A DNA stretch of 64,000 bases from a virus: positions 61,430 through 125,429 of IMG/VR virus record IMGVR_UViG_3300012271_000005; one strand, written 5' to 3'. The notes beneath the pieces are model-generated. The model was not told the DNA's origin. It searched no databases and saw only the letters and a list, made by a program, of their open reading frames with translations. Position numbers and translations under genes: made by a program. Below are positions 7,944-48,173 of this stretch, in pieces (the stretch's first letter is position 1; each line of letters opens with the position of its first letter).

Positions 7944-7990
7944 AGCGGGTGAGTGTTGACTACCAAGACCCCCCTTCGGAGAATCCCCAC

Positions 7991-22096: not shown

Positions 22097-25000
22097 TTAG
22101 GGCGTTCGGATCTCGCCTCGGAGCCCCAGGAAGTCTGCGAGCAGTCGGACCGCCTCCGTCTCGACACCCCACCCCACGTCCTCCGAGACGAGCACCTCGC
22201 CGTCCCAGCTCTCCAGTCTCAGGGTCTGGTTGGCGATCTCTCGGGTGGCACAGAAGTCCCGGATCTGTCGGAAGACCATGACCGAGTGCATCGAACCTCG
22301 CTCGTCCAGGGGGGCCAGCGGATTGCCGTGGAGTCGGTACGTCAAGATGGGACCCCCAAGGTACTTGCTCGTCTTGTTCTGGTAGCTCATGTATGCGTCT
22401 CCAAAGTCGCAGATGTCGTCCTTAACGAGGACCTCGGCGCCCGTCTCCTCATCTACCGCGAGGAGACCCCTCGGCAGGACCTCCTCTCCTTGCTCGTTGA
22501 TATACCACATCCCCGGCTCGAACTCGATGTGGCGCCAGAGGGACTCGGGCACCGGCTCCGGCGCGCGTACGGACGGGTTGTAGGGGTGGAACTCGGACCA
22601 GTTATAGCACACGTCAAAAGTCGGCCCAAGCTCAATATCACAGCGCAAGGGCACCGGCCACTTGAGCGCTCGCCCGAGGTCGGTCATCTTCTCGACGATC
22701 ACCGGCACCAGCTCGTCGAGCTTGTCCTTGCGCATCTCGAAGACAAGCTCATCGTGAATGCAGATCATGAGGCGGCAGTCGTCGAGCTTGTCGTTCGCTT
22801 TGAGCCAGTCAAAGATCCTCCACATGCCGTACTTGGTCAGGTCTCCCGTCGCGCTGCCCTGGATGATGCCGTTGACCGCGTTACGCTGCGCCTTGGCCGA
22901 GATCCAGGAGTCGTGGTTGTCAATGTCTGGCAGGCGGATGCGACGCCCGACCGCCGTTTTGACTTGCTTGTTTTGTGCGCACTCCTTGTGAATGTCGCTG
23001 ATCCAGGCTCGCAACTTCGGGAGCCCACTGAGCATCTTCTCCTTGATCTCTGCGCCTTCATCACGGGACACGCCCGTCGCGCGCGCCACCGCTGACCCGC
23101 CGCCTCCGTAGAGGACCGAGAAGTTGGCGCCCTTGGAGTTCTGGCGGTACTTCTTGAAGTCAGGCTTGCGCAGGACCTCATCCCCATACACGATCTGGGT
23201 CGTGAGCGTGTGCAGGTCACCGATCTTGTCGCTGCCGCACTTGGGACACAGCGCCGGGGGAGTCCCCACCGGCGTGCTGTAGCGCTCATCGTTGAACTCG
23301 TGCTTACACGTCGAGCAGCGGAAGAACTCGTTGATCCAACGCGGCTCCCCGGACAGGTTCGCCGCGAGACGAAGCTCGACGCCGCTCTGGTCGATTGCGA
23401 CGATCACAAACCCAGGGCGCGCCTTGATGGCGGGACGCACTGAGGAGTCCAGGCTCAACATCTTCGTGTTCGGCTTGGCGATGCCCTCCTCGTTCACGAA
23501 GGGCTCATCCTCGTACGTACAGGACTCCTGGAAGGGGCAACCCTCACACGACTTGGCGACGCATCGCTCTTCGTTCTTGTACGTATCGAGCACGAAGTGG
23601 TTGTCGTAGACGCGCGCCAGGAAGTCCACCCCTCGGAGCTTGTCAAAGCTCTCGTACCAGACGGCATCCGGATTGCCCGGCCCCTTGGGGCGAGAGATGA
23701 TGAGCTTGGATGCGAACTTGCCCCGGTTGTAGCACGCAGGCGCCGACTGCACGTTGATCCCCGAGTACCCGTGATCCCACTTGCCCTTGGACGCGGCGAA
23801 ACGTCCCGTATCCACTCGGTGCGGGTTGAAGGAGAAGTGGGTGGATTCATCCTGGAGAACGTGCGACGGGTTGCGCGGCAGCGCGTCATTGCGGTAGCCG
23901 TCCGTGTTGGTCTGGAGCGGCCCAAGGTAGGTCGAGTCAACCTTCTGGAGACCGCGATAGGTCCGAATGAGCTTCAAGAAGGGGAAGGTGTCTCCGACCT
24001 TCTCGCACAAGGCCTCGATCACATCGTCTGAGGTTTTTACCTGACCGGACTTCTCCGTCCGAACCAGTTCGGCCTTGATGAGCCCCTTGCCGTGGAGGTA
24101 GTCCATACCCGCTCCCAGCGTGGCGGGCTTGCTCACGTCGTTCACCGTCATGGGGAACCCAAAGCCGGAGAACCCCTGGGCGATCTGCTCGCACACCTCC
24201 TGAGTGTACTCCTGCACCTCGTAACGCACTCGGGAGAGGTAGTCCAGATCAATGTGAGGCCGGTTACGTTCCATCCACCGCGTCGCCGCGACGTTACCCC
24301 TCTCCAGACTGTAGACCCCCTTCTGCTCGGCGCGCACGCTCGGAGGCGACCCCTTCTCACAAGGCTCCAGGTCCACGACTCGGAGCTGTTTGGCCCCCTT
24401 TACGACCTTGCCGTGCTCATCTCGGGGATACTCCAGCCGAGGCACCGCGTAGTGGGTATCAAACAGCACGTAGAGCTTGTAGGTGCAGATGGCGTCCGCG
24501 CCCGCGTACCACAGCGTAGCCATGTCAGACGGGTCCAGCGTGGAGAAGTTGTAGTCCTTCAGGCTCTCGTCGAACAGCTCCGGCAGCTCGATCATCTCCA
24601 GGCCGAGGTGGCGGGAGGACAGACTCTTGAGGCCATGTCGCTTGCTGGACGAGTCGTGGAGGTAGCTCAGGATCAACGTGTCCTCGAAATCCTCGATGCC
24701 TCCCACCTCGTAACCGGCGCCTTCGAGGATCTCATGGTCAAAGAGCGTGTTGTGGAAGATGCACACGCAGACGTCGAGCAGGCGTTGGATGTGTGGGAAG
24801 ACGACATCGGGCTCCAGGTTGTGCGACGCTCCTCCCTGGCGATGCCGCACAGGCACGTACACACCTTCGTGGCCATCGTAGCTCATGCAATACCCGACGA
24901 TCTGGTCGACCGTCTCTCCGGAGGGCCTCCGGCGCGTATCGAGGCCCGTCGTCTCAATGTCCAACGCACACAGCTTCGAGGCGCACGCCCGGTCCACGTA

Positions 25001-25123
25001 GGCCTTGAGGGCTTCCTCCGTGTCGAGCAGCGTGAACTCGTGATCGTGCATCCACTCCTTGGGCTTGACCTCGACGACTTCGCGTAGCCCGAAGAACTCG
25101 TCCAGGCCCATCTGATCACTCAT
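22097..25123 (-). CDS. polA: DNA polymerase I (family A) with 3'-5' exonuclease and zinc-cluster insertions
   Basis: A 1008-aa replicative-type PolA. Exonuclease motifs are intact: DIETTGLD (55-62), FHNTLFDHE (123-131) and YAGAD (206-210). Polymerase motif A is AIDQSGVELR (576-585, D578), the O helix is R660, K664, F668, Y672-G673, and motif C is HDE (790-792). F668 at the nucleotide-selectivity position is as in Escherichia coli PolI. Two Cys clusters are unusual: C521/C526/C529/C535 before motif A, and C603/C606/C626/C629 between motif A and the HTLTTQIVYG fingers segment. A 165-residue C-terminal extension follows the catalytic core. There is no 5' nuclease domain. It heads the replication block. 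Confidence 0.95.
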   Translation of the reverse strand: MSDQMGLDEFFGLREVVEVKPKEWMHDHEFTLLDTEEALKAYVDRACASKLCALDIETTGLDTRRRPSGETVDQIVGYCMSYDGHEGVYVPVRHRQGGASHNLEPDVVFPHIQRLLDVCVCIFHNTLFDHEILEGAGYEVGGIEDFEDTLILSYLHDSSSKRHGLKSLSSRHLGLEMIELPELFDESLKDYNFSTLDPSDMATLWYAGADAICTYKLYVLFDTHYAVPRLEYPRDEHGKVVKGAKQLRVVDLEPCEKGSPPSVRAEQKGVYSLERGNVAATRWMERNRPHIDLDYLSRVRYEVQEYTQEVCEQIAQGFSGFGFPMTVNDVSKPATLGAGMDYLHGKGLIKAELVRTEKSGQVKTSDDVIEALCEKVGDTFPFLKLIRTYRGLQKVDSTYLGPLQTNTDGYRNDALPRNPSHVLQDESTHFSFNPHRVDTGRFAASKGKWDHGYSGINVQSAPACYNRGKFASKLIISRPKGPGNPDAVWYESFDKLRGVDFLARVYDNHFVLDTYKNEERCVAKSCEGCPFQESCTYEDEPFVNEEGIAKPNTKMLSLDSSVRPAIKARPGFVIVAIDQSGVELRLAANLSGEPRWINEFFRCSTCKHEFNDERYSTPVGTPPALCPKCGSDKIGDLHTLTTQIVYGDEVLRKPDFKKYRQNSKGANFSVLYGGGGSAVARATGVSRDEGAEIKEKMLSGLPKLRAWISDIHKECAQNKQVKTAVGRRIRLPDIDNHDSWISAKAQRNAVNGIIQGSATGDLTKYGMWRIFDWLKANDKLDDCRLMICIHDELVFEMRKDKLDELVPVIVEKMTDLGRALKWPVPLRCDIELGPTFDVCYNWSEFHPYNPSVRAPEPVPESLWRHIEFEPGMWYINEQGEEVLPRGLLAVDEETGAEVLVKDDICDFGDAYMSYQNKTSKYLGGPILTYRLHGNPLAPLDERGSMHSVMVFRQIRDFCATREIANQTLRLESWDGEVLVSEDVGWGVETEAVRLLADFLGLRGEIRTP

Positions 25124-26284: not shown

Positions 26285-29227
26285 TCACGCCTCCTCAGAC
26301 TCGTCGGAAGCGTCCGGCACGTCTTCGAGGCTCATGCGAGACGGCCTGGACGTACGGGCGTGGGTGCGACGCTCGGCCTGCGCCTCTTCTCGCTCGCGTT
26401 GAGTGGTCTCCACGCGCGCCGTATCAGCGGCCATGATGTTCTCGATCTCATCGTCGGTGGCCGCGTTGAGCAAGGACGCGTGGTTGCCAAAGTCAACCTC
26501 GTTGGCCATGTACCGCGTGTCCCAGTCAATCAGCGCCGTGAACGGCAGGAAGTGAGGGTTGTCTCGATTCTTCAGACAGCCAAACTTCGTACGCCCGCGC
26601 GCGCGCAGCTCCGCGTTGAGGTAGGTCGTCGTGATCACGTCCGAGGACCTCTCCGCCTCGTTTGCGTCGGCCAGCGCCTGCGTGCGGTACACGCCATCGC
26701 TCTTGTCTGCGTCGAGCTTACCCTGGCGGTTGATCTGGAGCAGCCCCAGGACGCCCACGCGCTCTCCCTGGTTGAACGTCAGGGCCAGCCTCTTGGCATC
26801 CCTCAGGATGGAGTTGAGGTCGGTGTAGTAGTTGCCCGAGAACTCGGCCGGCTTCAGGAGCGCGAAGTGGTCGATCACGCACATGTGAATGGGCGTCTGT
26901 GCGTGTCGCATCTCCATGGCCTGCTTGAGCTTGGGGATCGTCATGTCCTCGTCCGGGGAGTGCACGTAGACTGACCCGTAGCTGTGGCCCCGGTTCGCTT
27001 CGATGTCGTCGATGATGTGGTCGTAGAATGCGATCTGCTCCGCCGTGATCGGATTGCCCGCCTCGTCCTCGCCATCACGGATCACCCGGTACGTGAGCTT
27101 GGGCCACCCCTGACCCTGAAACTTCGGGTGGTTGGAGTGCATCACGTACATGATGCGCTGGAGGTGCTCGACCGACATCTCCATTGACAGGTAATAGACG
27201 TTGTACTGGAGGAGGAAGGCGGCGCGGTAAATCCAGTTGAGCGCGAACGACGTGTTGTGGGTGATGATGTCGTTGACCACGAAGCTGTGGTGCTCGGGCA
27301 CGCTCAGATCATAGGTCATTTCCACGCCCTTGGGGGTGATGGACTCGATCTGCTCCCAGGCTACCTCACCCCCCAGATGGCGCTCCAACTCCGGCTTGAG
27401 TGTCGTAAATAACGCCAAGGAATCCGCAGTCAAGCCCGCCCTTTTGCGTGCCTGACCGACATAACGCCAGGAACCTGTATCAGTGGCGACTCTATGGTTG
27501 TCTTCCAACCCCGCAAGTAGCTCACTGGGGAACACCCGGTCATCCCCACAAGGCAAACGATTCGCCAGTACCTCGAAACGCTCACGCTTCCCCGGCACGA
27601 CCACCTGAGCACAGAACTGCTGCTTACCCGGCCGGGTAATCACTCGCACGGTGTAGAAAAGGTACGGCTCGTCTTTATAGGTAGTCGCAACAGGGCGCAC
27701 CGTAGACGGAATGCCCAGACGCAACAGCAAACCCTGGACTCCCACGGCCAACTTCCGGCTCACCGATGTGTAAGTGATGTCGTTGCGACGGCTATCGGAG
27801 GTTCGGTCAGGGCGTTCATGATCACCGGTGTGGCAGGACCCGTCAGTAGCCCAGAGAGCGCCCAACAGGAGCGCAATCTGCGTATCGGGGAGACCAAACA
27901 GTTCCCCAGGGATGAACTTTTCATGTGAGCCTACCTGCCACAACCCAAGAGACCGCAAACGCGCCGCAAGAGGCGACACCATCTCCGAATTCCCGAGCCC
28001 CAAGCTCCGGCTCACTCGCAGGAATGGCGCCCGGTCCGAGGTCTCCTCCCGACACCAATTGAGGGTCTCATAAGTGGCAGGACCCTCCTGGTAACCCAGC
28101 ACCTCCAAACAAGCGATGAACACGTCTTGCACTTCTGTACAGGTCGCAGTCAAGCCAAACGTTGACTTGCCCAGAGTCCCATCCCCCAGGAGCAAACCGA
28201 TTGCCTGCACTTCCGCGTCGGAGAAGTCCGTGCGGGGCTGAGGCACTTTCATCACAGACGGTACACCTACCCAAGTACCTTCGGACAGCTCTCCAACTTC
28301 ACGCCACGAGCCGCCACCCTCCGCAGTCCACAGAGGGTGATTTGCAGTAAGCGTAACGGTACGCCCCGAGGAGGTTCGCACCTCAAAAACCTCGCGCTCC
28401 CCATTCTCTACGAGATGCGAGGCCTGCGCCTGTACCAACAACGGCTCGGCGCCTTCGTGTTTGAGGGCCGTGACTACAGGGAGTGCGTTGTGGTTATAGA
28501 GGTCTCGCACGCTCTCCAGCTTTTTGGTGTCGTGGTTGAAGACTAACGTATCCCCTGCCATGCACTTCAGCTCTCCGGTTGAGGCGGCGTGGGTCCACAT
28601 CTCACCCGGCTTGAGTCCTCGGCACACCACGTCAATGTCTTCGAGTCCACACAGACATCCCCAGGTCAGCTTCTCGGCTGCCAGGACTCGGTTCATCTCG
28701 TCTCGCGCGAAGTCCGTATCCTCCACGATGTCGGCCTTCGTCCTGGAGCCCGAGCTGTGGCTCATGAGGCGGTCGGAATGCTTCATGAGGTAGAGCATCG
28801 CGTCCCGGTATCCCTTCAGGTGCAAGGTCTTGCGTCCCTCCTTCATTGACATCCCGTTGAAGAGGATGTCGTTGGCCGTCTTGAGGGCGATGTGGAGGTC
28901 CTGATCACGCTGCCCCTCCACGACGTCATGGACAAGGGCCTCGAAGTCCGCGCCGGTGTACGTGGTAAAGGTGGCCTGGACCTCCTTGAGCCTCTCCGAG
29001 GTGACCGCCTCACCCTCACGCTCGTAGTAGTCGTGCAGACTCTGGGGCTTTGGCAGCTCTCCAAACTGCGTGGCGAACCCCTGGATGAAGTCCCAGATGT
29101 CCTGGTCTTCTGCGTCTGGGAGGCGGAGGTCTGAACCTGAGAGGGCCGCGTAGTTACGCTTGAGGTCGTCCTGTGGGATCTTACCATCCACGTCGAGGAC
29201 ACTGCGAAGGATCTTGGTGAGGCTCAT
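26285..29227 (-). CDS. dnaB: Replicative DNA helicase DnaB-like, split by an intein
   Basis: A 980-aa precursor. Residues 1-221 and 659-980 are the helicase; the spliced form would be 543 aa. The RecA-like core shows a P-loop ASTGELK-T (215-221 plus T659), a LSMEMS segment, Walker B HMCVIDHFALL, and GLLQINRQG (motif H3). The P-loop is degenerate (A and L replace the usual glycines) but keeps Lys-Thr. The intein interrupts the P-loop between Lys and Thr, a known insertion point for DnaB inteins. The C terminus is a charged, probably disordered tail. A loader-like gene lies upstream and the primase zinc-domain gene downstream. Confidence 0.9.
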   Translation of the reverse strand: MSLTKILRSVLDVDGKIPQDDLKRNYAALSGSDLRLPDAEDQDIWDFIQGFATQFGELPKPQSLHDYYEREGEAVTSERLKEVQATFTTYTGADFEALVHDVVEGQRDQDLHIALKTANDILFNGMSMKEGRKTLHLKGYRDAMLYLMKHSDRLMSHSSGSRTKADIVEDTDFARDEMNRVLAAEKLTWGCLCGLEDIDVVCRGLKPGEMWTHAASTGELKCMAGDTLVFNHDTKKLESVRDLYNHNALPVVTALKHEGAEPLLVQAQASHLVENGEREVFEVRTSSGRTVTLTANHPLWTAEGGGSWREVGELSEGTWVGVPSVMKVPQPRTDFSDAEVQAIGLLLGDGTLGKSTFGLTATCTEVQDVFIACLEVLGYQEGPATYETLNWCREETSDRAPFLRVSRSLGLGNSEMVSPLAARLRSLGLWQVGSHEKFIPGELFGLPDTQIALLLGALWATDGSCHTGDHERPDRTSDSRRNDITYTSVSRKLAVGVQGLLLRLGIPSTVRPVATTYKDEPYLFYTVRVITRPGKQQFCAQVVVPGKRERFEVLANRLPCGDDRVFPSELLAGLEDNHRVATDTGSWRYVGQARKRAGLTADSLALFTTLKPELERHLGGEVAWEQIESITPKGVEMTYDLSVPEHHSFVVNDIITHNTSFALNWIYRAAFLLQYNVYYLSMEMSVEHLQRIMYVMHSNHPKFQGQGWPKLTYRVIRDGEDEAGNPITAEQIAFYDHIIDDIEANRGHSYGSVYVHSPDEDMTIPKLKQAMEMRHAQTPIHMCVIDHFALLKPAEFSGNYYTDLNSILRDAKRLALTFNQGERVGVLGLLQINRQGKLDADKSDGVYRTQALADANEAERSSDVITTTYLNAELRARGRTKFGCLKNRDNPHFLPFTALIDWDTRYMANEVDFGNHASLLNAATDDEIENIMAADTARVETTQREREEAQAERRTHARTSRPSRMSLEDVPDASDESEEA
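27254..28564 (-). mobile_element. DnaB intein with LAGLIDADG homing endonuclease
   Basis: A 437-residue intein occupies residues 222-658. It begins with Cys (CMAGDTLVF) and ends in THN followed by extein Thr659, which are the required splice-site residues. The N-terminal block B is present as VTLTANHPLWT (about 291-301) and block F/G as YDLSVPEHHSFVVNDIITHN. Two dodecapeptide endonuclease motifs, AIGLLLGDGTLG (342-353) and ALLLGALWATDG (452-463), are intact, so the element is probably active or recently active. Confidence 0.93.
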
Positions 29228-30105: not shown

Positions 30106-31821
30106 TCAGGTGTCGTCGAGTGAGGAGACCATGGCGTCATAGAGCGCCTTGGTCTCCGAGGGGCCAAACACGAAGTCGTCTTCAGCCTCCTCATCGTTGC
30201 CAAGGAGGCGCGCCCCCAGCGCTCCCTCGATGTAACCCATCTTCTTGCTCAAGGTGTCGGATACGTGCTTGTCGATCGTCGCTTCGCCAAAGGGGCCCTC
30301 CGCGATAAGGTTCACAGCGTACACGGATTGATGAGGGGAGCCAATCCGAATCATCCGACCCACGAGCTGGAGAAGGTCCCCCGCGCTCCAGGGCAGATCA
30401 AAGAACACCATGACCCGTGCCTGCTGTAGGTTTATACCCTCAGCCCCGGCCATCGTCAAGAAGATAACCCTGGTGTCGTCAGTCTCCGTAAAGGCGCGTC
30501 GGGCTGCGTCGCGCTGGTAGGTGTTCTCTGAGCCGGTGACCCGAACCATCCCTTTCCCATCTTTGCACGCGCGAGGCTCCCAGGCGCGACCCTCCCCAGG
30601 CTCAATGCCCAGCTCGTAATCACGCGCCACGAGGAGGTCCTGTAGACGGTCCACCATCTTGCGGAAGCGAGTGAAGACGATCACCTTCTCCTCCGCCAGC
30701 TCACCGTCGAGAAGCTCCAACAGGAGGTCCACCTTCGGGCTCGCCCCTTCGTTGCCGATCAAGTAGAGGTCGTCCACGATCTCCTGACAGTAGATCAGCT
30801 TGGTGAGGTGGCTGGTCTCCACGGCTGCGTCGTCGGCGTCTGGATCGAACAGGCTCGCCTCGGCCACCATCTCGTGACTCTCGTTGACTGCCAGGAGACC
30901 CGCCACTGCGTCCTGGTAGTGTCGCCATTGATCACGACTCATCGAGACCTTGATCTCCTTGGTCGTCAAGACCGGCAGCTCCTTGGCGACCGTGTGCTTG
31001 GCTCGGCCAAGGTAGAAGGGGTCGATGCGCCCGCGAAACAGCTTGATGTGATCTCGCGTGTGTCCCACGATCATGGGCACCTTGCGTCCGCCCCCGATAG
31101 GTTGCATGCGAGTCACGCAGTAATTGCGCATGAACCCCTTCTCGGAGCTGAAGGTACCGGGCCGAACGACCGAGTAGATGCCGAACCCCTCCATGAGGTT
31201 GTTCTTGATCAGCGTCGCCGTGGCTCCGTAGACCCTCCAGGCGTTGTCCGCCAGACGTTTGGTCATGACGTGGGTGTTCGACTTGGGCGACTTCACCGCC
31301 GCAACCTCATCGAGCCAAAGGACGTACTGGCGACCTCCCAGGTGTGCCTTGAGCTTTCGGTAGTCGATTCTCAGCCGGGGGTAGTTCGTGATCAGGACGC
31401 TTGGGTTGTCGGGGTCCCACGTCGAGAAGAACTCTTCGTAGACCTTCTCTCGCTGCTTGGCCGTACCGTCTACCATGAAGCAGCGAATGCCCGTGGTGAA
31501 CTTGTCGAACTCCCCAGCCCACTGTCGAATCGCGCTCGTCGTCGTCACGAAGATCGGCACGAGGTTCGGCTCGCGTCCCCACAGGAGACACTGAGCCGCG
31601 ATGGTCATGAGGCTCTTGCCCAAGCCCGTATCATCCCCGACCACGAAGCGCTTGCGCATGAGCAGGTGGAGGACCATCTGCTTCTGGTAGTGGCGCAGCT
31701 CGAAGGGCACGACGCTCCCATCCTTGAGCGTCAAGGTTTCTCTCAAGAACGGTGTGTGGGGTAGCGTGATCTGCTCACACTCGCGGACGCGCTGGAGCTT
31801 CTCATAGGTCGAATCTGCCAT
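30106..31821 (-). CDS. SNF2-family helicase/ATPase
   Basis: A 571-aa superfamily 2 ATPase. Motif I is GDDTGLGKS (62-70), motif II DEVA in VLWLDEVAAVKSP (171-174), motif III GATATL, and motif VI QLVGRMIRIGS near the C terminus. This is the compact two-lobe SNF2 core without accessory domains, as found in many large phages. It may translocate on double-stranded DNA in recombination, replication restart or anti-defence. It is the upstream part of the replication operon. Confidence 0.9.
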   Translation of the reverse strand: MADSTYEKLQRVRECEQITLPHTPFLRETLTLKDGSVVPFELRHYQKQMVLHLLMRKRFVVGDDTGLGKSLMTIAAQCLLWGREPNLVPIFVTTTSAIRQWAGEFDKFTTGIRCFMVDGTAKQREKVYEEFFSTWDPDNPSVLITNYPRLRIDYRKLKAHLGGRQYVLWLDEVAAVKSPKSNTHVMTKRLADNAWRVYGATATLIKNNLMEGFGIYSVVRPGTFSSEKGFMRNYCVTRMQPIGGGRKVPMIVGHTRDHIKLFRGRIDPFYLGRAKHTVAKELPVLTTKEIKVSMSRDQWRHYQDAVAGLLAVNESHEMVAEASLFDPDADDAAVETSHLTKLIYCQEIVDDLYLIGNEGASPKVDLLLELLDGELAEEKVIVFTRFRKMVDRLQDLLVARDYELGIEPGEGRAWEPRACKDGKGMVRVTGSENTYQRDAARRAFTETDDTRVIFLTMAGAEGINLQQARVMVFFDLPWSAGDLLQLVGRMIRIGSPHQSVYAVNLIAEGPFGEATIDKHVSDTLSKKMGYIEGALGARLLGNDEEAEDDFVFGPSETKALYDAMVSSLDDT

Positions 31822-32905: not shown

Positions 32906-33562
32906 TCAGTTGAAGGAGAGGCTGACTCCGAACACGGAGATGAGGTCTCCAGTGCCGTACTCCACTGCCGCACCTCCCAGGAGGCCGAGATTCTTGGTGA
33001 GGTCTACCCCCAGGCTCAGGCCTCCTTGCTTGAGTCCCGAGTGCGCCTGTACGTGAAGCATGCGCCAGTAGAAGGGCTCGAAGGCCAGCACCGGGTCGAA
33101 CATCTCTCCAAGCTCTCCGCCGAGGTTGCTTGGGAGCCACACGAAGCCTAGCTTGACGCGAAGGCGAAAGCCCCACTCCGGGGCCACCGGGGGCTTCTGT
33201 TTGGTGACCGCCACGTTGTTGTCCACGCTGAACTTGAGCTTCCAGCGGCACCACCTCAGCTCCCCCTCCAGCTTGTCGTCGGTCAAGACTTGGCCATCTC
33301 GCGTGATCACGACCCGCTGGTCCTTGAACTCCATGTCCAGGTCCCCGGACTGGGCCGAGTCGATCATGCAGTTGTGGTTCTCGGCCACTTCGGACAGCTC
33401 GGCCGCCTGCGCGTTCGTCAGACACTTGTACCCAATAGGACACTCCGCAGGCGGCCGCTCCAGGGTGCGCAGCTCTCGCTCCTGAGCGTATACATCCTCC
33501 GCGACCAGGACGGTGTTGAGAAGGACCAGGAGGGCGGTCAGGAGGACGTACGAGCGTTGCAT
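32906..33562 (-). CDS. Exported protein with outer-membrane-like C terminus
   Basis: A 218-aa protein. Residues 1-26 are a Sec signal peptide (MQRSYVLLTALLVLLNTVLV) with probable cleavage at VYA-QERE. The mature part has four Cys in its first half and a strand-rich C-terminal half (FRLRVKLGFVWLP, GGLSLGVDLTKNLGLLGGAAVEYG) ending SVFGVSLSFN, like the terminal strand of outer-membrane beta-barrels. It could act in lysis, superinfection exclusion or envelope remodelling. It is the last gene of the membrane cassette. Confidence 0.6.
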   Translation of the reverse strand: MQRSYVLLTALLVLLNTVLVAEDVYAQERELRTLERPPAECPIGYKCLTNAQAAELSEVAENHNCMIDSAQSGDLDMEFKDQRVVITRDGQVLTDDKLEGELRWCRWKLKFSVDNNVAVTKQKPPVAPEWGFRLRVKLGFVWLPSNLGGELGEMFDPVLAFEPFYWRMLHVQAHSGLKQGGLSLGVDLTKNLGLLGGAAVEYGTGDLISVFGVSLSFN

Positions 33563-33570
33563 GGGCTACC

Positions 33571-34110
33571 TCACTTGAGCGCGTCCAGAATGTCCTTGGA
33601 TACGCGTTTGGGACCTTCGACCACGGTGATCTCGACCTTGCCGGGCTTGGTCAGGATCACCGTGTCAACGTCCGTGTCTTTGACTCCAGTTGGAAGGCGC
33701 AGCTTCTTGGTGGAAGCCTCCCCTTCTTCGGTCTCGGGGACCGCGACCTCCAGGACGTTACGGTCCCGGAAGGGGTTGCGTCTGCGGTCGACTACGGTAA
33801 CCTCTCGCTGTACGAATCCTTCGTCGTCAGGCTCGCCCACTTCGATCGGCTCGCCGTCTTTCTGCCGACCCTCAGGCACACGGTTCACCTGCACCTCAAG
33901 GCTGGGCACGTCTTCTGCCTCGTCCCGGCCAAAGAGCCACCCCAGTACGCCGCCCACGTTGAACGCATCACCCACCCCGAAGAGGAGGAGGACTACCGCC
34001 ACGACCACGACCACGAGAGCAATCACGAGTGCCAGAGGGTAGCGCAGCGTATAGTTCCAGACCGTGAGGCCCCACCGCTTGATGCGGCTCCATGCGGTCT
34101 CATCACTCAT
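33571..34110 (-). CDS. Single-pass membrane protein
   Basis: A 179-aa protein. One long hydrophobic helix is visible at about residues 26-46 (LALVIALVVVVVAVVLLLFGV), followed by a second short hydrophobic patch (VGGVLGWLFG) and a ~130-residue acidic soluble domain of predicted strands (VDTVILTKPGKVEITVVEGP). Its start overlaps the stop of the preceding gene by 8 nt. A role in lysis control or envelope anchoring is plausible from context only. Confidence 0.65.
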   Translation of the reverse strand: MSDETAWSRIKRWGLTVWNYTLRYPLALVIALVVVVVAVVLLLFGVGDAFNVGGVLGWLFGRDEAEDVPSLEVQVNRVPEGRQKDGEPIEVGEPDDEGFVQREVTVVDRRRNPFRDRNVLEVAVPETEEGEASTKKLRLPTGVKDTDVDTVILTKPGKVEITVVEGPKRVSKDILDALK

Positions 34111-34567
34111 GGTAGTCGTCCGTACGGTCGTCCACGAAGGGAGAGTCCACGAAGGTCACCTTGGGCGGCGAAGGACGGAGGACGTCCTCAGCGCGTGCGA
34201 GGCTAAAGGGCATCGTGGAGGCTGAGTCCGCCTGTGGAAGCGAGATCTGAGGTACCAGCGCAGCAGTGGGCGCAGCAGTGGGCGCCGCAGCGGGAGCTGC
34301 TGGACCAAAGATGGGCGTGGCCTGTGATCCACGGGCTCCCAGTCGACCTCGCATGATCTCGGCAAGAGGGCCCGAGAGCTTCTTGCCGAAGTTGTAGGCG
34401 AAGAGGACGAGCAGGATGTCGAACATCGTGTTCGGCACCGCCTTGGTGGCGGCCCAGAACCAGATGTGGGCTCCAAACACGACCCAGCACATGAGGCGGC
34501 CCATGCTCAACTCGTTATTCTCAATGAGGACGGCGCCCCACTTGACGGCTTTGATACGGTCCCACAT
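34103..34567 (-). CDS. Holin-like membrane protein
   Basis: A 154-aa protein. The ATG at 34565-34567 follows AGGAGAG. Two hydrophobic segments lie near residues 25-43 (LMCWVVFGAHIWFWAATKA) and 47-62 (TMFDILLVLFAYNFGK), followed by a Pro/Ala-rich linker (AAPTAAPTAA). The two-helix, short-loop design with a charged tail is typical of phage holins, but no specific family is recognised. It lies directly downstream of the histidine kinase gene. Confidence 0.5.
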   Translation of the reverse strand: MWDRIKAVKWGAVLIENNELSMGRLMCWVVFGAHIWFWAATKAVPNTMFDILLVLFAYNFGKKLSGPLAEIMRGRLGARGSQATPIFGPAAPAAAPTAAPTAALVPQISLPQADSASTMPFSLARAEDVLRPSPPKVTFVDSPFVDDRTDDYHE

Positions 34568-34569: not shown

Positions 34570-35739
34570 TCAACTCTCCTCAGTATGATAGGGTAAGTGC
34601 AGGTGCAAGGTCGTACCCTCTCCAACGGTGCTCTCCGCGTCGATAGTACCACCTGCACTGCGCACAAAGTGATAAACGAAGTACAACCCCAGACCCGAGC
34701 CTGTATCCACGTCTCGCGTGGTGAAATACGGAGTGAAGACTTGCTTGAGCGTGTTGGCGTCCATGCCACACCCGTTGTCCGTAAAGCTCAGGACGATGCA
34801 GTTCGGGTGGTGGGGCTTGTTACACATGTGCGTAAGGATGCGTATGGACGCCTCCTCTTCCAGGCCCTTGGTGGCACGCATGGCGTTGTCGAACAGGTTG
34901 GTCAAGACTTGGGAGAATCGGGGCCCGGACATCTCAATGAGCTTGTCTTGAGCGAGGTCATTCTCCATCGAGAACACCCCCACATAGCGCTTGGTGGGCT
35001 CCACGAAGCTCATTGTCTGCACGTAGTTGTTGAGCGCATGTCCCAGATCAAGGAAAGCCCCCTGGGGAGCCGTCAGCTCACGCATGGGAGCGGTCATGTC
35101 GTTGAGGATCTGTGACATTCGCAGGAGCGCCGTCCGGGTGCCCTCAAGAGAGGTAGAGAGGTCGACGTCTTCGGACTCCGAGGAGATCTCCAGGAGGTCA
35201 AGGTATCCGCGAGCGGTAGCCAGAGGCGTCTTTAGCTCGTGGTTGAGACCGAAGAGCATGATCTGAAGCCTCTCCGCCCACTTGTGCTCCTCCTCTGCCA
35301 GGATCACGGCGTGTGTCGCCGCTACCTCGATGAATATGATCAGTGTCGCCCCAAACGCATCATGCCGATAGAAGCGTACGAGATGCTCATCGGAGCGTCC
35401 CTTGAGGTAGAGACCTTTAATGAGCATCGGCTGGCGGAACTCCCCCAGGGCAAAGAGGGTGTCCAGGAGGGTATGGCAATCCTCCCGCACAAAGTCGTAC
35501 AGGGAGCAGTACCCAAGCTCGTCCAGGGTGAGACCTACGTACTCCAGGGCCGGGGGGTTGGCGTGGAGGAGGTCTGCGTTGAAGTCGGTCTGGAAAATGA
35601 CGGAGACGTTCTCATAGTAGCTGGCGAGACTTGCAACCACCTCCACGCCCTCGGAGAGATGACGATCCTCAGGCGGCCTTCGCCACATGCCTCGCCACTT
35701 CTTCCAGAAACGACCGAGCTGCGAAATGGTCTTTCTCAT
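34570..35739 (-). CDS. Soluble PAS-containing histidine kinase
   Basis: A 389-aa sensor kinase. Residues ~45-140 form a PAS-like sensor (VIFQTDFNADLLHANPPA, LDELGYCSLYDFV). The HisKA box is NHELKTPLA with phospho-acceptor H167. The ATPase domain is complete: N box NLFDNA (281-286), G1 DNGCG (321-325), F box VFTPYFTT (334-341) and G2 GSGLGLYF (347-354). No transmembrane segment is present, so it senses a cytoplasmic cue or binds a membrane partner. The frame overlaps the regulator gene upstream by 71 nt; a second ATG at 35688 would reduce that to about 20 nt. Either way the two are coupled. Confidence 0.93.
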   Translation of the reverse strand: MRKTISQLGRFWKKWRGMWRRPPEDRHLSEGVEVVASLASYYENVSVIFQTDFNADLLHANPPALEYVGLTLDELGYCSLYDFVREDCHTLLDTLFALGEFRQPMLIKGLYLKGRSDEHLVRFYRHDAFGATLIIFIEVAATHAVILAEEEHKWAERLQIMLFGLNHELKTPLATARGYLDLLEISSESEDVDLSTSLEGTRTALLRMSQILNDMTAPMRELTAPQGAFLDLGHALNNYVQTMSFVEPTKRYVGVFSMENDLAQDKLIEMSGPRFSQVLTNLFDNAMRATKGLEEEASIRILTHMCNKPHHPNCIVLSFTDNGCGMDANTLKQVFTPYFTTRDVDTGSGLGLYFVYHFVRSAGGTIDAESTVGEGTTLHLHLPYHTEES

Positions 35740-36049
35740 AGATCCGCTCTCCCGTGGCCGAGGCGGCCCGATACTCAGGGCTTTGGGGGTGACACCCGGT
35801 CAAGAATATGACCGGGCACGTATGGCCCTCTTCCCGTAGCCAATGGTAAAACTCCACTCCTCCAGTGCCGTTGATGATCAGATCAATGACCACGCAGTCC
35901 GGGTCGTTCCCCGCTTCGGAGAGGCTCTCCTTGGCCAGTCTGATGGCGTGCGCCTTCTCAGTGCACACCTCCACGTCGTAACGCAGGGAGAGGATGGACT
36001 TGAGCATGCTCGCCATCTCGGTATCGTCTTCGATTACCAGGACCTTCAT
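35669..36049 (-). CDS. Receiver-only response regulator
   Basis: A 126-aa CheY-like receiver. The acidic pocket is E7-D8-D9, the phospho-acceptor D56 (VVIDLI), the switch Thr T84 (IFLTG) and the conserved Lys K106 (YEKDH). No output domain is present, so it must act by protein-protein contact or as a phosphate relay. The gene overlaps the histidine kinase gene, forming a cognate pair inside a cassette of membrane proteins. Confidence 0.93.
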   Translation of the reverse strand: MKVLVIEDDTEMASMLKSILSLRYDVEVCTEKAHAIRLAKESLSEAGNDPDCVVIDLIINGTGGVEFYHWLREEGHTCPVIFLTGCHPQSPEYRAASATGERIYEKDHFAARSFLEEVARHVAKAA

Positions 36050-36053: not shown

Positions 36054-36494
36054 TCACTTCTCTCTCTGGGGACCCTGCACAGGAAGTGCAGGCTCTTGGT
36101 CGTTAGTCTTGCTCTCCACCTTCTGAGTCGCAGCGGCCGTCTGGAGGTCCACCGTCTTCATGAAGTAGGTCGTAAGGCTGCCGACCAGGAGCAGGATGAT
36201 GGGCCATAACCACTTCATGGTCTTGATGGAGCCGTTGATCTGCTGCAAGGTCGCCGTGTTTGCCATGACGAGCTTGGTGATCTCCTTGCGGTCCTCAATG
36301 TCTTGCTCCAGGGTCTGCTCGACCGACTGGAGCTTGAGCGTCATCTGAGACTGGTTCTCGGAGACCTCCTCAAGACCGGACCCGAACGACTCAAAGCGCT
36401 TGAAGATCTGATCGTCACGTGTCTTACGGACGGACCTCTCCGCCGTAAGGCGCTCTTCGAGACGTGTGAGCCTCTCCCTTCCCTCTTCATTCAT
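36054..36494 (-). CDS. Coiled-coil membrane protein, XhlA-like
   Basis: A 146-aa protein. A long coiled coil (about residues 5-88, LTRLEERLTAERSVRKTRDD and onward) is followed by one transmembrane helix at about 93-112 (MKWLWPIILLLVGSLTTYFM) and a polar tail. This arrangement matches haemolysin XhlA-type proteins that accompany holins. The ATG overlaps the upstream stop (ATGA), so translation is coupled. Its position starts the membrane cassette. Confidence 0.6.
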   Translation of the reverse strand: MNEEGRERLTRLEERLTAERSVRKTRDDQIFKRFESFGSGLEEVSENQSQMTLKLQSVEQTLEQDIEDRKEITKLVMANTATLQQINGSIKTMKWLWPIILLLVGSLTTYFMKTVDLQTAAATQKVESKTNDQEPALPVQGPQREK

Positions 36495-36664
36495 TTGGGG
36501 CCCCCTTCGCGTCGCAACAGGGTGCGAGCTTGGTCGGTTTGGTGTCGGATCTCATCCGTCATACCTTCCTTGACTGCCCTCGTCTTCAAGTATACCAAAC
36601 GACCTTTGGCCCATTCTACTGCGCGAGTACCTCTCAAATCAGTGGCACGGAGCTTCCTTGACAT
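36491..36664 (-). CDS. Small basic protein (57 aa)
   Basis: The ATG (36662-36664) follows a consensus AAAGGAGG ribosome site. The product is 57 aa, basic and helical (RKLRATDLRGTRAVEWAKGR, TDQARTLLRREGG). It overlaps the next gene in an ATGA junction. The function is unknown; it may be a small regulatory or lysis-accessory protein. The frame is below 60 codons. Confidence 0.65.
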   Translation of the reverse strand: MSRKLRATDLRGTRAVEWAKGRLVYLKTRAVKEGMTDEIRHQTDQARTLLRREGGPK

Positions 36665-36694: not shown

Positions 36695-39600
36695 TCAGGG
36701 GCAATCCGGGTCGATTCCCGGCGTCAGAGGATCACGAGTATCCGCGACCTCAATATCATCAGGCCGGGGGAGACGTCGCCCTCCCTGAACCAAGGGTCGA
36801 CCCTCGATTCGGTACCGGTCGACGGCGTTGCTGCCCTCTCCCAGACCTGTCGGGTGGGTCTGTAGTACCAAATCCATAAACTCATTAGTGAGGGCCCCGG
36901 ACGTGTCAAGCTCCTTGCCCAAACGCAGGCCCGTAGCGATCACGAGCTGAAGCTCGTCACCATAGCTGACCTGCCTCTCACTGGTCGTGACGCTCTGCTT
37001 CTGAACACGCACGAGCAGCGCAACCCCCAGGAGGGCTCCGCCGTGCATTGAGAGGTCCTCAGGGCGAGGCGAAGCGAGGTATCCAAGGTCCTTGGAGACG
37101 CGTGGGCCCGAGAGCGTCATTGCGCCTCCAGGGTTACGACCACTGGCTACCGTCGCCGTGCCGCCACGGTAGGTGCGGTAGAGCAGGAAGTTCGGGTCGT
37201 ACCCAGTAAGGGCTGCCGAGCCCGCCGCCGTACCATCCGAGAGCAGCAACGCTCCGTCAAGCCACGTCTTCGAGAGCGCGCGGTCGTAGCGGTAATCACC
37301 CGGCACGTCCAGAGATACGCCAGGAGTGAAGAAGCGCTCGGCAGATCGCCCGAGACCCTCTCCGAGGAAGTGTGCGTCCGAAGCGAGGATACCCAGGGGC
37401 AACCGCTCGGTAGCTCCCAGCATCTGCGCTCCCACGTAGCGGGCGATGGTCACTCCTCCAGCCGGAGCCGGGTGAGCACGAACCTTGGACGGGATCGGGG
37501 CGTCCGCAGCAGACGTGTAGGGGTAGGCGGCCAGCGAAAGGTAGCCCACGTCCGTGTAGCTTCCCGAGACCACCGGGCCCGAGAGCGCCCCGGTTCCCAG
37601 CGTCGTGACGAAGGGGAAAGAGGCTACGATCTCCACAACCCCAGGGTTCTCCACGCGCGCTTGAGATGGGTCCTCAAAGGGCTGCCCAAGCTGCGTGATC
37701 TGCGTGGGGTTCTCCGAGGTACGCTTGGGCACGTAGTCAAGCAGCTCCACGCTGCCCGTGTCCGTGGTCGAGATGGGCATGGTGCCGTAGATAGCTCCCT
37801 GGTAGGGGATACGCGTGGAGACGACCGAGATCTGGTCTCCCGCCTCGGCAGGTCCCGGTACGAAGAGCTGGTAGCTCCTGTCCGCTGTGCCTGCACCTGC
37901 CAAGCGATGCACGCGCGTGTAGTCCTGCGTCCAGTCGTCGAAGAAGAAGGCCGCGAACTCGAAGACGAGCGGGCTGTCCACCAGCTCTCCTCCCAGGTAG
38001 GACATGTCCAGGACGTCCTCCGGGATCACGAAGGTGTTGTTCTGCGTGATGATGAAGCTGCGGCGCTCTCCGTCCTCGCGCAAGAGGTTGTCACGCCCCA
38101 CGCCCGAGTCCGTACGGAACGGCGCTGCGGCCGTGTCCGAGAAGTTGGAGACGCCGGGGCTGTCCGTGTAGAAGTCCTCCTGCCTGTAGACGGCGAAGAG
38201 GCGCGCGATGCCGTAGTTGGCCGGGATCTCAATACCCCGCACTCCACCCGCATTGTAGTAGCGACACGCGAGCGCGTTGACACCACCAGGGCCTCCGCCC
38301 ACGCCGGAGAGGTCGGGGTAGGTCCCGAAGTCTCCCAGGGTCAGGTTGAGCGGATCATAGACCGCCACGACCCGCTGCTGAATGAACGGGGCGTTGACCG
38401 ACTGCGAGCCGGAGAGGAACAGGTGGTTGATGCCGTACGCAGGAGCGGTCGATGTGGCCGTTCCTGCGGCGCGTGAGCGTACGAAGGGCACATCATGGCG
38501 TCCCAGTGCCCCTCGAAGCTCGCGAGGCACCAGAAGCGAATCTGAGCCCGGTGTGAGATTGAACAGGCCGGTCACGTCCGAGTAGCTGCGCGCCGAGGGG
38601 ACCGGCTGTGGGTCCATGCGTGCCGAGATGTTACGCATCGGCTGGTAGATCAGCGTCTTCGAGCCGGGATCAACATAGGCCTCTCCCCATACCGTCTCGG
38701 GCGTCTCAGGCTCACGAAGCGAACGCACAGGAGTTTGAGCGTTGCGCAGGTGCGGGTACGACTCGCCGGGGAGCACGTTGGAGCGTCGAATGTTCGCGGT
38801 CGGGCTCGCTGCTTGGTTCGCGAACGTGTTCTCGCGCACGAAGAGTGACGGGGTGGCCGCGTCAAGGTCAACGTAGAGGCTGACCTCCGGAGAACGCGCC
38901 AGACCCTGGACCGGATGGTAGAGCAGGTCATGCGAGAGGTAGAGGGCCGAGTCGGTCGCGGCCGTACGGCCCGACGCCAGCGCGATGAACAGGCTGTCGT
39001 CAGTCTCCGAGCACTGCTCCAGGTAGAGACCCCAGGTACGGTTGGTCGTGCCGCCCGTATCAAAGCCGGGTGCTCCGCCGTCCGGGGTCTGAACCACAAG
39101 AGCACCTCCCGCCACGTGCCCTACGACCCGGAACGCGCCGTGGTTGAGGGGACGCGTCGAGGTAGGGTCAGTGCCGGGAGTGAGCAGCAAGAAGGCCCCC
39201 GCCTCCAGGATGGCGTCAATGTCTGCGCTAAAGTCCAGGCTCACGTCTACCGTGCCCCCTGCCGGACCTTGAATCGACGTGGCCGAGTTGGCGAACGTGA
39301 TCGCGGTCGTACCCGAAGACGCGACCGAGAGGCCGTCAAGAGGCGTACCCAGGACCACGAAGTCTGGATCAACGTCGCCGCTGCTGGTCGAGTACGCGTC
39401 CCGACGATCAGGGTCCGCGCTATCCGGGTCCGTGTCCCCGTACCATACGCGCACGGGCGCGTGCGTGGTCCCGTCGTACTCGTAGGGATGGACGAATCGG
39501 ACCTTCTGGTCGTTGACCGACGCGAACGTGTTGCGGTACTGGTCCAGTGCGATGGCGACCACATCACGAGGGTTCCAGTTCTCGGCCGCCGCCGAATCCT

Positions 39601-41119
39601 GACGGAAGATGTCCACCGTCGGGTTGAAGGGGAGGTCCGAAGAGTTCTGAGTCGACCCGTTCGATCCCAGGACGACCAAGTTGTCCGGCTGGAGCACGCA
39701 CGCATCCGAGAACACGCGACGGAACCCGTCAGGAGCGTCCCCCTTGATCTGGAAATCAGGAGCGACGGCAGAGCCTCCGAGGTAGTCCACCTGGAAATGG
39801 CGCGTCCCCTTCACGCCTGCTGAGGAGCGCTTCCAGGTCGTCTGCATCTCTCCCTTGAGAACGCGGCCGAGGTTGTGCTTGAGGAGCCCGTCAAAGTCGA
39901 CCGGGCCCATGCCCACGACGTGTCGGAGATCGTGGATGTCGTCGGCCACGACCTGATCGCTGAACAGGCCCAGAGGGTGTCCAGTGACGTGGAGAATCTG
40001 TGCTCCGATGGCATGGTTCGTAGCCACGGTCCCACGGTCACCGCGCGTCGCCAGGGTCAGCGTGTTGCCTACATAAGACGTGTAGGCCATGACCTCGCCA
40101 TCAACCTTGATCAGACCTCCGCCCGAGTTGAACGTCGTAGAGGACGCCACGGTGTCCACGCTCAAGGAGAGGTCAGTGGGTCCAACAGCTCCCGTCAGCG
40201 TGATCGTGGGGAGCACGCGCGCCTGAGTACGGTCACTGGCAGAGGGATTACGGTTGACCGCACCCGCCTGTGCCAGGGCTGACCAGTTCGCCGTCGAGCG
40301 GCGGAAGACGAAACACAGGGGGATGGCGTAGACGTAGCCGTCCACGGTGCCAAGGAGCCCGTTGCTTCCATCGCCATCACCCGCGCGCCAGAGGCCTGCA
40401 TCGCCCAGCGTGTCACACTGGTTGGTGAACGTGTAGAGAGCGTTGGCCGAAGCCGTGGGCACGTCCAGCGTGCCTTGAGCTTTGATCTGCGCGTTGAAAC
40501 CGAAGGGGTTGAGCGTCGGGTTCACGGCAGAGACAACACGCAAGCGGTACTGGATCTGTACGCGCTCCGTGGTCTCAATCCCGATGGCCGGGTCGAGGAA
40601 GTCCTGTACGGGGTTGGTGCCTCCGTACTCGACGTTGCCGTAACGCCAGACCGTATCCACGCCGGGCTTTGAGGCCGTGCCTGAGGGAGCGATCTGCGCC
40701 TTCCACACCTCCAGGAATACGAAGTTGACGTCTGCGTCGGTGGTCGTGGCCTGAGGAGGCGGGAGCGTGATCGCGTTACGCGTGCCGACGTTCCCTGTCC
40801 CGATCACGGGAATCATCCAGCCGTTGACGTGGGCCCAGATGATGTCTCCGTCGTCCCCGGAGGTCTCCTTGCCCAGCCAGAACAGGTTCGAGGCCTGCGT
40901 GGACGTCTCGAAGTCGTCTGCGGCTCGGATAGGGTCCCCGATGAACCCGGAGGGGATGTTGGCCTTGATGAGCGCGCGGCGAGCCTCTTCGCTGATCTGA
41001 GAGAGCAGGTTCAGCTCCGAATCCAGCGGCGGCCGGTTCTTCTGAAAGACCGGCGAGAGGAAGTTGCGAGCCTGCGCGGTCAACGTGCGGGAGACGCCTT
41101 CTCCAAGAAAATCGGTCAT
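36695..41119 (-). CDS. Giant tail-fibre/virion protein
   Basis: A 1474-aa protein. The N-terminal ~330 residues share an ordered set of motifs with the protein at 48174-50750: SGF-(I/L)-(G/T)-G, FLEVWKAQ versus YLEVWRAV, ETTERVQIQYRL versus ETTRRVQIQYRI, GDAGLWRAGDGD, and GT(V/T)DGYVYAIP versus YSIP. This is probably a virion-attachment domain, with different C-terminal parts for receptor or structural roles. The rest is low in Cys and Lys and rich in Thr, Gly and Asp strands, as in fibre shafts. It is the last gene of the tail operon. Confidence 0.75.
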   Translation of the reverse strand: MTDFLGEGVSRTLTAQARNFLSPVFQKNRPPLDSELNLLSQISEEARRALIKANIPSGFIGDPIRAADDFETSTQASNLFWLGKETSGDDGDIIWAHVNGWMIPVIGTGNVGTRNAITLPPPQATTTDADVNFVFLEVWKAQIAPSGTASKPGVDTVWRYGNVEYGGTNPVQDFLDPAIGIETTERVQIQYRLRVVSAVNPTLNPFGFNAQIKAQGTLDVPTASANALYTFTNQCDTLGDAGLWRAGDGDGSNGLLGTVDGYVYAIPLCFVFRRSTANWSALAQAGAVNRNPSASDRTQARVLPTITLTGAVGPTDLSLSVDTVASSTTFNSGGGLIKVDGEVMAYTSYVGNTLTLATRGDRGTVATNHAIGAQILHVTGHPLGLFSDQVVADDIHDLRHVVGMGPVDFDGLLKHNLGRVLKGEMQTTWKRSSAGVKGTRHFQVDYLGGSAVAPDFQIKGDAPDGFRRVFSDACVLQPDNLVVLGSNGSTQNSSDLPFNPTVDIFRQDSAAAENWNPRDVVAIALDQYRNTFASVNDQKVRFVHPYEYDGTTHAPVRVWYGDTDPDSADPDRRDAYSTSSGDVDPDFVVLGTPLDGLSVASSGTTAITFANSATSIQGPAGGTVDVSLDFSADIDAILEAGAFLLLTPGTDPTSTRPLNHGAFRVVGHVAGGALVVQTPDGGAPGFDTGGTTNRTWGLYLEQCSETDDSLFIALASGRTAATDSALYLSHDLLYHPVQGLARSPEVSLYVDLDAATPSLFVRENTFANQAASPTANIRRSNVLPGESYPHLRNAQTPVRSLREPETPETVWGEAYVDPGSKTLIYQPMRNISARMDPQPVPSARSYSDVTGLFNLTPGSDSLLVPRELRGALGRHDVPFVRSRAAGTATSTAPAYGINHLFLSGSQSVNAPFIQQRVVAVYDPLNLTLGDFGTYPDLSGVGGGPGGVNALACRYYNAGGVRGIEIPANYGIARLFAVYRQEDFYTDSPGVSNFSDTAAAPFRTDSGVGRDNLLREDGERRSFIITQNNTFVIPEDVLDMSYLGGELVDSPLVFEFAAFFFDDWTQDYTRVHRLAGAGTADRSYQLFVPGPAEAGDQISVVSTRIPYQGAIYGTMPISTTDTGSVELLDYVPKRTSENPTQITQLGQPFEDPSQARVENPGVVEIVASFPFVTTLGTGALSGPVVSGSYTDVGYLSLAAYPYTSAADAPIPSKVRAHPAPAGGVTIARYVGAQMLGATERLPLGILASDAHFLGEGLGRSAERFFTPGVSLDVPGDYRYDRALSKTWLDGALLLSDGTAAGSAALTGYDPNFLLYRTYRGGTATVASGRNPGGAMTLSGPRVSKDLGYLASPRPEDLSMHGGALLGVALLVRVQKQSVTTSERQVSYGDELQLVIATGLRLGKELDTSGALTNEFMDLVLQTHPTGLGEGSNAVDRYRIEGRPLVQGGRRLPRPDDIEVADTRDPLTPGIDPDCP

Positions 41120-48161: not shown

Positions 48162-48173
48162 GAGAGGCTCCTA

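Follow-up and report, generated by a model that had tools for sequence, protein, structure and literature searches.

Overlapping Genes for a Histidine Kinase and a Receiver-Only Response Regulator in a Metagenomic Phage Record and in a Second, Larger Phage

RESULTS

Gene content of the locus

The window (the whole stretch of DNA analyzed here, 64,000 nucleotides in length) covers bases 61430-125429 of a virus record that is 125,429 bases long; the record is a metagenomic fragment and lacks end repeats. Two adjacent genes on its minus strand encode a response regulator and a histidine kinase, with the following features:

35669-36049, minus strand: single-domain response regulator, 126 amino acids (aa), receiver only
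35882-35884, minus strand: phospho-acceptor D56 of the regulator
35669-35739, minus strand: 71-nt overlap of the regulator end with the kinase start
34570-35739, minus strand: histidine kinase, 389 aa, with an N-terminal amphipathic stretch followed by PAS-like, DHp (HisKA), and HATPase_c parts
35683-35736, minus strand: cationic amphipathic stretch, kinase residues 2-19 (from the hydrophobic moment and a model helix at 2-19)
35320-35613, minus strand: PAS-like sensor domain, kinase residues 43-140 (from AlphaFold2 element order and structural matches)
35239-35241, minus strand: phospho-acceptor H167 of the kinase, motif NHELKTPLA
34588-34920, minus strand: HATPase_c, kinase residues 274-384, with the N, G1, F, and G2 boxes (Pfam)

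Genes with matches in PHROGs or Pfam place the pair among phage functions:

2818-6216: Baseplate J
16907-17809: PhoH
22097-25123: DNA polymerase A (PolA)
26285-29227: DnaB-like helicase
30106-31821: SNF2 helicase, 571 aa

Tail or baseplate matches of lower strength occur at other places in the window. These searches (PHROGs and/or Pfam) covered 48 of the 87 called open reading frames (ORFs) plus the regulator, and within that scope no endolysin or holin was recognized. Nor was a terminase recognized: a weak match (E 4.3e-4) to phrog_2, the terminase large subunit family, falls on the PhoH gene. In a Pfam profile search of the full record, HisKA and Response_reg matched once each. Elsewhere in the window, the plus strand at 7949-9031 encodes a protein with a zeta-toxin/AAA_33 kinase-like domain at its C terminus.

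The genes immediately around the pair include several of a putative membrane type:

36695-41119, minus strand: tail-type protein, 1474 aa, with weak PHROG tail matches over part of its length; conserved in most related loci and upstream of the cassette
36491-36664, minus strand: short ORF of 57 aa that separates the tail-type gene from g73; short ORFs also occupy this position in several relatives
36054-36494, minus strand: g73, 146 aa, charged, apparently helical (by eye, a coiled coil), and hydrophobic in a single segment at the C terminus
34103-34567, minus strand: g71, 154 aa, with two hydrophobic segments and a Pro/Ala-rich tail; starts 2 nt after the kinase stop
33571-34110, minus strand: g70, 179 aa, with a strong N-terminal transmembrane (TM) segment; homologues in several relatives that lack the pair
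32906-33562, minus strand: g69, 218 aa, with an N-terminal hydrophobic, signal-like segment and a strand-rich C-terminal half; homologues in several relatives that lack the pair

Domain make-up of the kinase

The kinase scores 74.4 bits against HATPase_c and 34.6 bits against HisKA, both in excess of the curated cut-offs, and possesses the active-site residues H167, N281/N285, D321-G323-G325, F335/P337/F339, and G347-G349-G351, the motifs among which correspond to the N, G1, F, and G2 boxes. All catalytic residues are unchanged in the homologue (55-56% identity) from a 437-kb contig described below. The protein thus satisfies the definition of a HisKA-type histidine kinase (HisKA with a conserved histidine, then HATPase_c with N, G1, F, and G2 boxes), bearing out a preliminary description of this DNA, in which a full kinase with H167 and intact boxes had been read from the sequence. 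The PAS domain claimed in the same description, an input domain that such kinases often but need not have, stands less firmly: residues 47-139 of an AlphaFold2 model (32 sequences; mean pLDDT 77.7, pTM 0.53) follow a PAS-like order of secondary-structure elements, and the best Foldseek matches in the PDB include PAS/LOV-histidine kinases across ~370-420 columns, nearly the whole length, but the Pfam search returned no PAS match and the whole-chain TM-scores of the Foldseek matches are low (0.34-0.47), with large rmsd, as would be expected if the domains sit differently. The remaining model parts are a helix at residues 2-19 (pLDDT ~63), a long DHp hairpin (140-221), and then the catalytic domain.

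By the Kyte-Doolittle scale (threshold 1.6), the only stretch flagged in the kinase of the window is residues 129-147, and none is flagged in its relative; because this stretch lies in and after the last PAS strand of the model and its counterpart is unflagged, we count it as no TM helix. In both phages, the N terminus is the region of highest hydrophobic moment (Eisenberg moment up to 0.765 and 0.725), and the two N termini share the pattern ISxLxxFWxKW. Residues 2-19 are predicted, by inference, to form a peripheral membrane anchor, a prediction weakened by the low model confidence for this helix, by its position inside the gene overlap, and by the weak constraint on the kinase frame there.

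The regulator and the gene overlap

Response_reg (48.4 bits) is the only Pfam match of the regulator above cut-off, and neither an output domain nor a DNA-binding domain was found by Pfam. The active-site residues D8, D9, D56, T84, and K106 are present and are unchanged in the homologue of the 437-kb contig (65-66% identity), such that the definition of a single-domain response regulator (acidic pair, phospho-Asp, Thr/Ser, and Lys, with no output domain) is met. The preliminary reading of a receiver-only protein with every catalytic residue therefore holds, as does its statement that the two genes are adjacent and overlap; altered active sites, named there as a possible cause of failed phosphotransfer, are not seen in the sequence of either protein in either phage. 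Its further assertion that signaling must end in protein contact is too strong: action through contact is likely in the absence of an output domain, but the regulator could also be a member of a relay or a phosphate sink.

In both phages, the kinase ATG is preceded, within the regulator gene, by a purine-rich stretch resembling a Shine-Dalgarno sequence (by eye). Within the overlap, 9 of 23 residues of the kinase frame are identical between the phages, a value reached by 4.9% of random synonymous versions; judged from the sequence, constraint on the kinase frame in this region is weak. A programmed frameshift fusing regulator and kinase was considered and set aside, as regulator and kinase start separately in the two phages alike and the Shine-Dalgarno-like stretch precedes the kinase start.

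A collinear block in a second phage

The best of 22 loci obtained by scanning IMG/VR with the SNF2 helicase (locus L007) lies on a 437,490-base contig (G001), in which the block has the same order as in the window: tail-type gene-g73-regulator-kinase-g71-g70-g69-g67-SNF2-helicase-PolA. The g68 gene of the window has no match in this block. Identity between the two phages is 55% for the kinase, 66% for the regulator, and 68% for PolA, and the overlap of the regulator and kinase genes is 71 nt in the larger phage too. Throughout the run g73-regulator-kinase-g71-g70, genes are separated by gaps of at most 4 nt or overlap, in both phages. Adjacent genes that stay together are one criterion for a cognate pair, and the shared overlap fulfills it, albeit in two phages only and with co-transcription inferred.

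Substitution patterns (NG86, window versus larger contig) give a dN/dS of 0.361/1.438 (~0.25) for the kinase and 0.266/2.885 (~0.09) for the regulator; seven neighboring genes range from 0.12 to 0.22, placing the kinase slightly higher and the regulator lower. All of these values are rough, with synonymous sites near saturation and g71 without a computable dS. Three observations rule out chance ORFs: the scores in Pfam, the existence of a collinear homologue, and the way in which substitutions are distributed over codon positions.

The larger contig contains one HisKA and one Response_reg match, plus an additional HATPase_c match without HisKA. Its phrog_2 match (E 4.6e-22) offers only mild support for its phage identity, because cellular genomes also match: E <= 0.001 was reached in 8 of 14 clade records searched and in 11 of 14 cellular control genomes. 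The SNF2 helicase gene of this contig (L007:7043-11221) is a single frame of 1392 aa that, compared with the 571-aa protein of the window, contains two insertions, one of ~450 and one of ~350 aa, and SNF2 matches in L026 and L028 likewise fall into three separated pieces; the insertions in the 437-kb phage are possibly inteins.

An accessory cassette at a conserved site

In the other 21 loci (L008-L028, each with at most 10 kb on either flank of SNF2), no tblastn match to the kinase or regulator was found at E <= 1e-4. ORFs between the tail-type gene and SNF2 were examined in 11 of these loci; the ten unexamined include L015, L018, L019, L022, and L027, which, from their match coordinates, are copies or near-copies of examined loci. 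In six of the 11 (L011, L012, L014, L017, L021, and L025), the tail-type gene is followed by a small ORF and next by a second ORF that carries a flagged hydrophobic stretch and is 124-167 aa long or, in L025, read through to 577. A similar but unflagged ORF occurs in L013 (142 aa), L020 has an unflagged ORF of 140 aa, there is no flagged ORF at the site in L008 or L009, and in L016 the g70 ORF begins 48 nt past the end of the tail match. The g70 gene directly follows the insertion-site ORF in L013, L020, L021, and L025 and lies one ORF further on in L011. From the ORF content of these relatives, the gene order is conserved apart from g73-regulator-kinase-g71, which behaves like an accessory cassette.

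Within the cassette, g71 and g73 each match 2 of the 23 clade records, the same two that carry the pair, a co-occurrence that could be plain common descent in a sample of two phages. Hydrophobicity peaks in the two phages (Kyte-Doolittle, threshold 1.6) are 1.53 and 2.04 for g73, 1.1-1.3 for g71, and 3.64 and 3.45 for g70. The g71 product, a putative hairpin membrane protein whose segments remain below the TM threshold in both phages, has no Pfam or PHROG match, and the best PHROG match of g73, a "hemolysin" family, is not significant (E 0.054). The model of g69 is strand rich (pTM 0.41) and yielded no PDB match at E <= 0.001. Considered as a lysis cassette, which would combine endolysin, holin, and spanins, g73, g71, g70, and g69 are of membrane type, and none of the four matches a holin or endolysin in Pfam. 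In the interval from the tail-type gene to SNF2, two relatives encode, respectively, a GH46 enzyme that also has a below-cut-off peptidoglycan-binding stretch (L021:8480-9406) and a papain-type protease (L014:4904-5782); on this thin basis, we call the block lysis or envelope related.

Distribution among phage records

Among the 22 records in which a related SNF2 gene occurs, two contain HisKA (G001 and G014) and three contain Response_reg (G001, G014, and G018), and HATPase_c exceeds its cut-off in 3 of 23 records when that of the window is counted (the window's own, G001, and G014). Queried with the kinase, the 22 records gave two matches: G001 at 55% and, for the ATPase part alone, G014 at 40%. 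Separate, adjacent kinase and regulator genes occur only in G001. In G014 (358 kb), kinase and receiver share one frame at 93.5-94.6 kb, with two PAS-like stretches (by eye), and the SNF2 gene lies at ~309 kb. The record G018, another large phage of the clade, has no HisKA match; it has a separate receiver, probably single-domain (L120:4609-5148; G018:C1:142629-142955).

Exact-motif scans of IMG/VR with LNHELKTPLA and DLIINGTGG returned G001 as the sole match, and scans built from alignments of the two kinase or regulator homologues likewise returned only G001. Distant members would escape such scans, and the records nearest that of the window may be excluded from them. Exact peptide patterns of the kinase or regulator alone missed even G001, and PolA patterns recovered no relative, though the PolA of G001 is 68% identical, which shows how much pattern scans can miss.

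Across 50,697 deposited phage records, 47 match the kinase (all at <60% identity) and one matches the regulator. Thirty-six of the 47 are named for Listeria, Enterococcus, Staphylococcus, Salmonella, or Escherichia, many of them being short and sharing one strain name; names and sizes (for 40 of the 47), the only grounds for this inference, suggest that most of them are bacterial contigs. With the fused kinase of G014 as the query, 58 deposited phage records match. Among four records examined further, LR756501.1 (735 kb) encodes a fused kinase-receiver at 36712-38277 and, far off, a separate receiver at 350299-350628; the Microcystis phage MaAM05 has a kinase match and a receiver match below cut-off; MW462191, possibly a bacterial contig, contains two receivers along with four HisKA matches, of which three exceed the cut-off; and in LR745208 (485 kb), neither a kinase nor a receiver domain was found.

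The preliminary description had held complete two-component systems to be very unusual in phages and had proposed a search for the same pair in other phage genomes. That search located the pair in G001, with no further instance in the IMG/VR motif scans. The rarity largely stands, given that phage kinases in the cited literature come without a reported partner regulator, at least in the accessible portions of those papers, and that a single related record has separate adjacent genes; the pair is not unique in kind, however, in view of the fused kinase-receivers of G014 and LR756501, the latter with a separate receiver as well.

Origin of the kinase

A genome scan with the kinase core, based on two patterns only, gave at least 593 candidates and 446 confirmed cellular loci. 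Among the best 80 of the 446, the 57 loci that match over a long stretch are 25-34% identical to the kinase, and short segments reach 49%, compared with a core identity of 63% between the two phage kinases. A maximum-likelihood tree of 87 rows unites the two phage kinases (support 100/100), with a stem branch of 4.89 changes per site leading to them, and places other phage kinases, including the fused proteins of G014 and LR756501, elsewhere. Deep placement is unsure, as branches are long and the bootstrap has not settled. As far as these sequences go, the pair represents a lineage that is either old or rapidly evolving and to which none of the sampled cellular sequences is close. A single origin of phage kinases was also considered and is not supported: the phage label needs four changes, the starred branches force at least two, and the phage kinases fall together in 0% of 200 bootstrap trees.

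DISCUSSION

A resident signaling pair and its possible targets

Our best explanation as a whole is a phage-resident two-component system, competent by sequence, whose regulator acts by contact on a membrane target from its own cassette; we regard the full proposal as an even call. Comparison of the two phages can establish its groundwork, namely the domain make-up, the complete active sites, the overlapping and collinear genes, the low dN/dS, and the co-occurrence of g73 and g71, and the pair gives the impression of being functional in these two viruses, of which the first is related to giant phages and the second is itself giant. What follows from there is inference. With no TM helix, the kinase would sit on the inner face of the host membrane by way of its N-terminal amphipathic stretch, and its PAS-like domain would answer a cytoplasmic or membrane cue. 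The kinase would then autophosphorylate H167, a step for which there are no biochemical data, and the phosphate would pass to D56 of the regulator, for which there are no phosphotransfer data. Phosphatase activity is also predicted for the kinase from its HExxT motif. Once phosphorylated, the regulator would bind its target directly, in the manner of CheY-type single-domain regulators. The most likely target is g71 or g73, the nearest candidate partners, given that both accompany the pair and belong with it to one closely packed series of genes. As the record is a fragment, other targets of the regulator may be missing from it.

The least certain step is the last, in which the contact would determine when a late event at the envelope takes place, for instance the triggering of a holin or of lysis. 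A phage-owned switch in an envelope/lysis block, with a membrane-surface PAS kinase and an output-less regulator that contacts g71 or g73, depending on phosphorylation, to time the last step of a huge phage, is unlikely enough, in our estimate, to be offered as conjecture only; its link to lysis is inferred from position and from the enzyme of one relative (L021).

That the pair is stray host DNA, through a chimeric or mis-binned contig, is scarcely conceivable. The record is a metagenomic fragment without end repeats, and numerous kinase matches under phage names resemble bacterial contigs, as inferred from names and sizes; but phage genes surround the pair, the block from the tail-type gene to PolA is continuous both here and in the 437-kb contig, its flanking genes are syntenic in additional IMG/VR contigs, and no join to a host chromosome was seen. 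Host contamination is rejected on the strength of that second collinear block, which also disposes of the circumstance that the preliminary description had named as fatal to a phage-encoded pair, its occurrence solely in a host chromosomal segment. Nor do we give much weight to the notion that the genes are passengers, or cargo in decay, and do nothing for the phage. A patchy distribution (2 of 23 records) would fit this reading, which we consider highly improbable and already largely refuted by the intact frames, the complete catalytic residues, dN/dS ratios that stay low across a long divergence, and the same position in two phages.

The remaining alternatives grant the pair a function and move its target. 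In a take-over of the host, the kinase would phosphorylate a host regulator, or the receiver would drain phosphate from a host kinase or mimic a CheY/DivK-like regulator, with host physiology altered during infection. This is possible, if on the whole unlikely: authors have so interpreted phage kinases without partners, as in AgrC of phiCDHM1 and the phoR of soil phages (acting with host PhoB), to the extent that the accessible text of those studies indicates, and G018 and LR756501 carry receivers without an adjoining kinase gene, yet each of the two phages encodes both partners next to each other, the 437-kb record gave no further HisKA or Response_reg match, and the distance of the kinase core from sampled cellular kinases (25-34% identity over long matches, with the long stem in the tree) disfavors mimicry of any one host kinase. 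Control of the CRISPR-Cas system of the phage, or of another counter-defense, in place of an envelope event, is improbable. The idea draws on the type I-E-like locus and arrays in this record and on a PF09344 (Cas7e-type) gene found in 2 of the 23 records, exactly the two with the pair; against it, the cas genes lie ~39 kb from the pair, common descent also leaves two phages sharing two traits, and Pfam found no DNA-binding domain in the regulator.

The CRISPR-Cas locus itself lies outside the window, on the minus strand of the same record (G000:C1:48658-56614; L004:8658-16614), and comprises Cse1, Cas5, PF08798, CT1975, and a Cas3 with HD and helicase domains; PF08798 and CT1975 are of Cas6e and Cas7e type, respectively, and Cse2 was not identified at this locus. 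CRISPR arrays with a period of ~61 nt occur at ~48066-48547, 57278-57837, 59758-60359, and 23131-23391 of G000:C1, the last supported by a repeat-pattern match alone. Their spacers could identify the host or rival phages.

A separate pair with complete active sites, at the same place in two phages, suggests that some phages may run phosphosignaling of their own. Should the phage-resident system act on its own cassette as proposed, timing under the control of a sensor would replace or supplement a passive holin clock; with two putative membrane partners, the pair offers a concrete case in which to test if phages read the intracellular state of the host when timing late infection.

Comparison with known systems

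Two-component signaling is central to bacteria, and the literature, in its accessible parts, presents lone or hybrid phage kinases without naming a partner regulator. AgrC of the Clostridioides phage phiCDHM1 is a kinase-type ATPase, like the present kinase, and differs in being part of an agr quorum-sensing set, with no response regulator reported in the phage in the sections available (PMC3901668; also reviewed in PMC7790227). Histidine kinases are likewise borne by pelagiphages, in which they adjoin curli genes (PMC9599517), by hot-spring phages, as hybrid kinases (PMC6302217), and by soil phages, as phoR tied to host PhoB (PMC10987575), with no partner regulator mentioned in what is accessible of these three sources. 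Streptomyces phages have a 150-aa ORF for a histidine-kinase-like ATPase (PMC5336643, from partial text), and PMC10132094, as far as its available text extends, concerns host genes. The main text of the huge-phage paper (PMC7162821) does not contain the terms "histidine kinase," "two-component," or "response regulator," and in the open-licence literature searched, we recognized no phage-encoded kinase with a separate regulator.

Large phages also combine kinase and receiver in G014 and LR756501, where the two are fused in one frame and belong to other branches of the kinase tree; the fused gene of G014 sits at a place unrelated to the block of the window. The cRec domains of jumbo phages are receiver-like, as is the regulator described here, and are stated by the authors of two papers, in the accessible text, never to be found with a histidine kinase and to be tied to NAD+/ADP-ribose or RNA-repair enzymes (PMC7824862 and PMC9503650); the present regulator, whose gene overlaps that of a histidine kinase, falls outside this description.

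Among cellular systems, PAS-HisKA-HATPase kinases that have separate regulators (PDB 4i5s, VicK-like; 9jfj, ZraS; and 3d36, sporulation kinase B) have the same domain order, H-box, N/G1/F/G2 boxes, and predicted fold as the phage kinase, which differs in its lack of a TM helix, its amphipathic N terminus, and its 25-34% identity to long-match cellular homologues, and in a partner regulator without an output domain. The single-domain regulator EpsW acts directly on the membrane enzyme EpsZ (PMC12802240, seen in part), and direct action of a regulator on a membrane protein thus has a precedent. Along with CheY, DivK, and Thermotoga maritima RR468, EpsW resembles the phage regulator in consisting of a receiver only, with the five active-site residues; what sets the phage protein apart from all four is a gene that overlaps that of its kinase and resides in a block of phage tail- and envelope-type genes.
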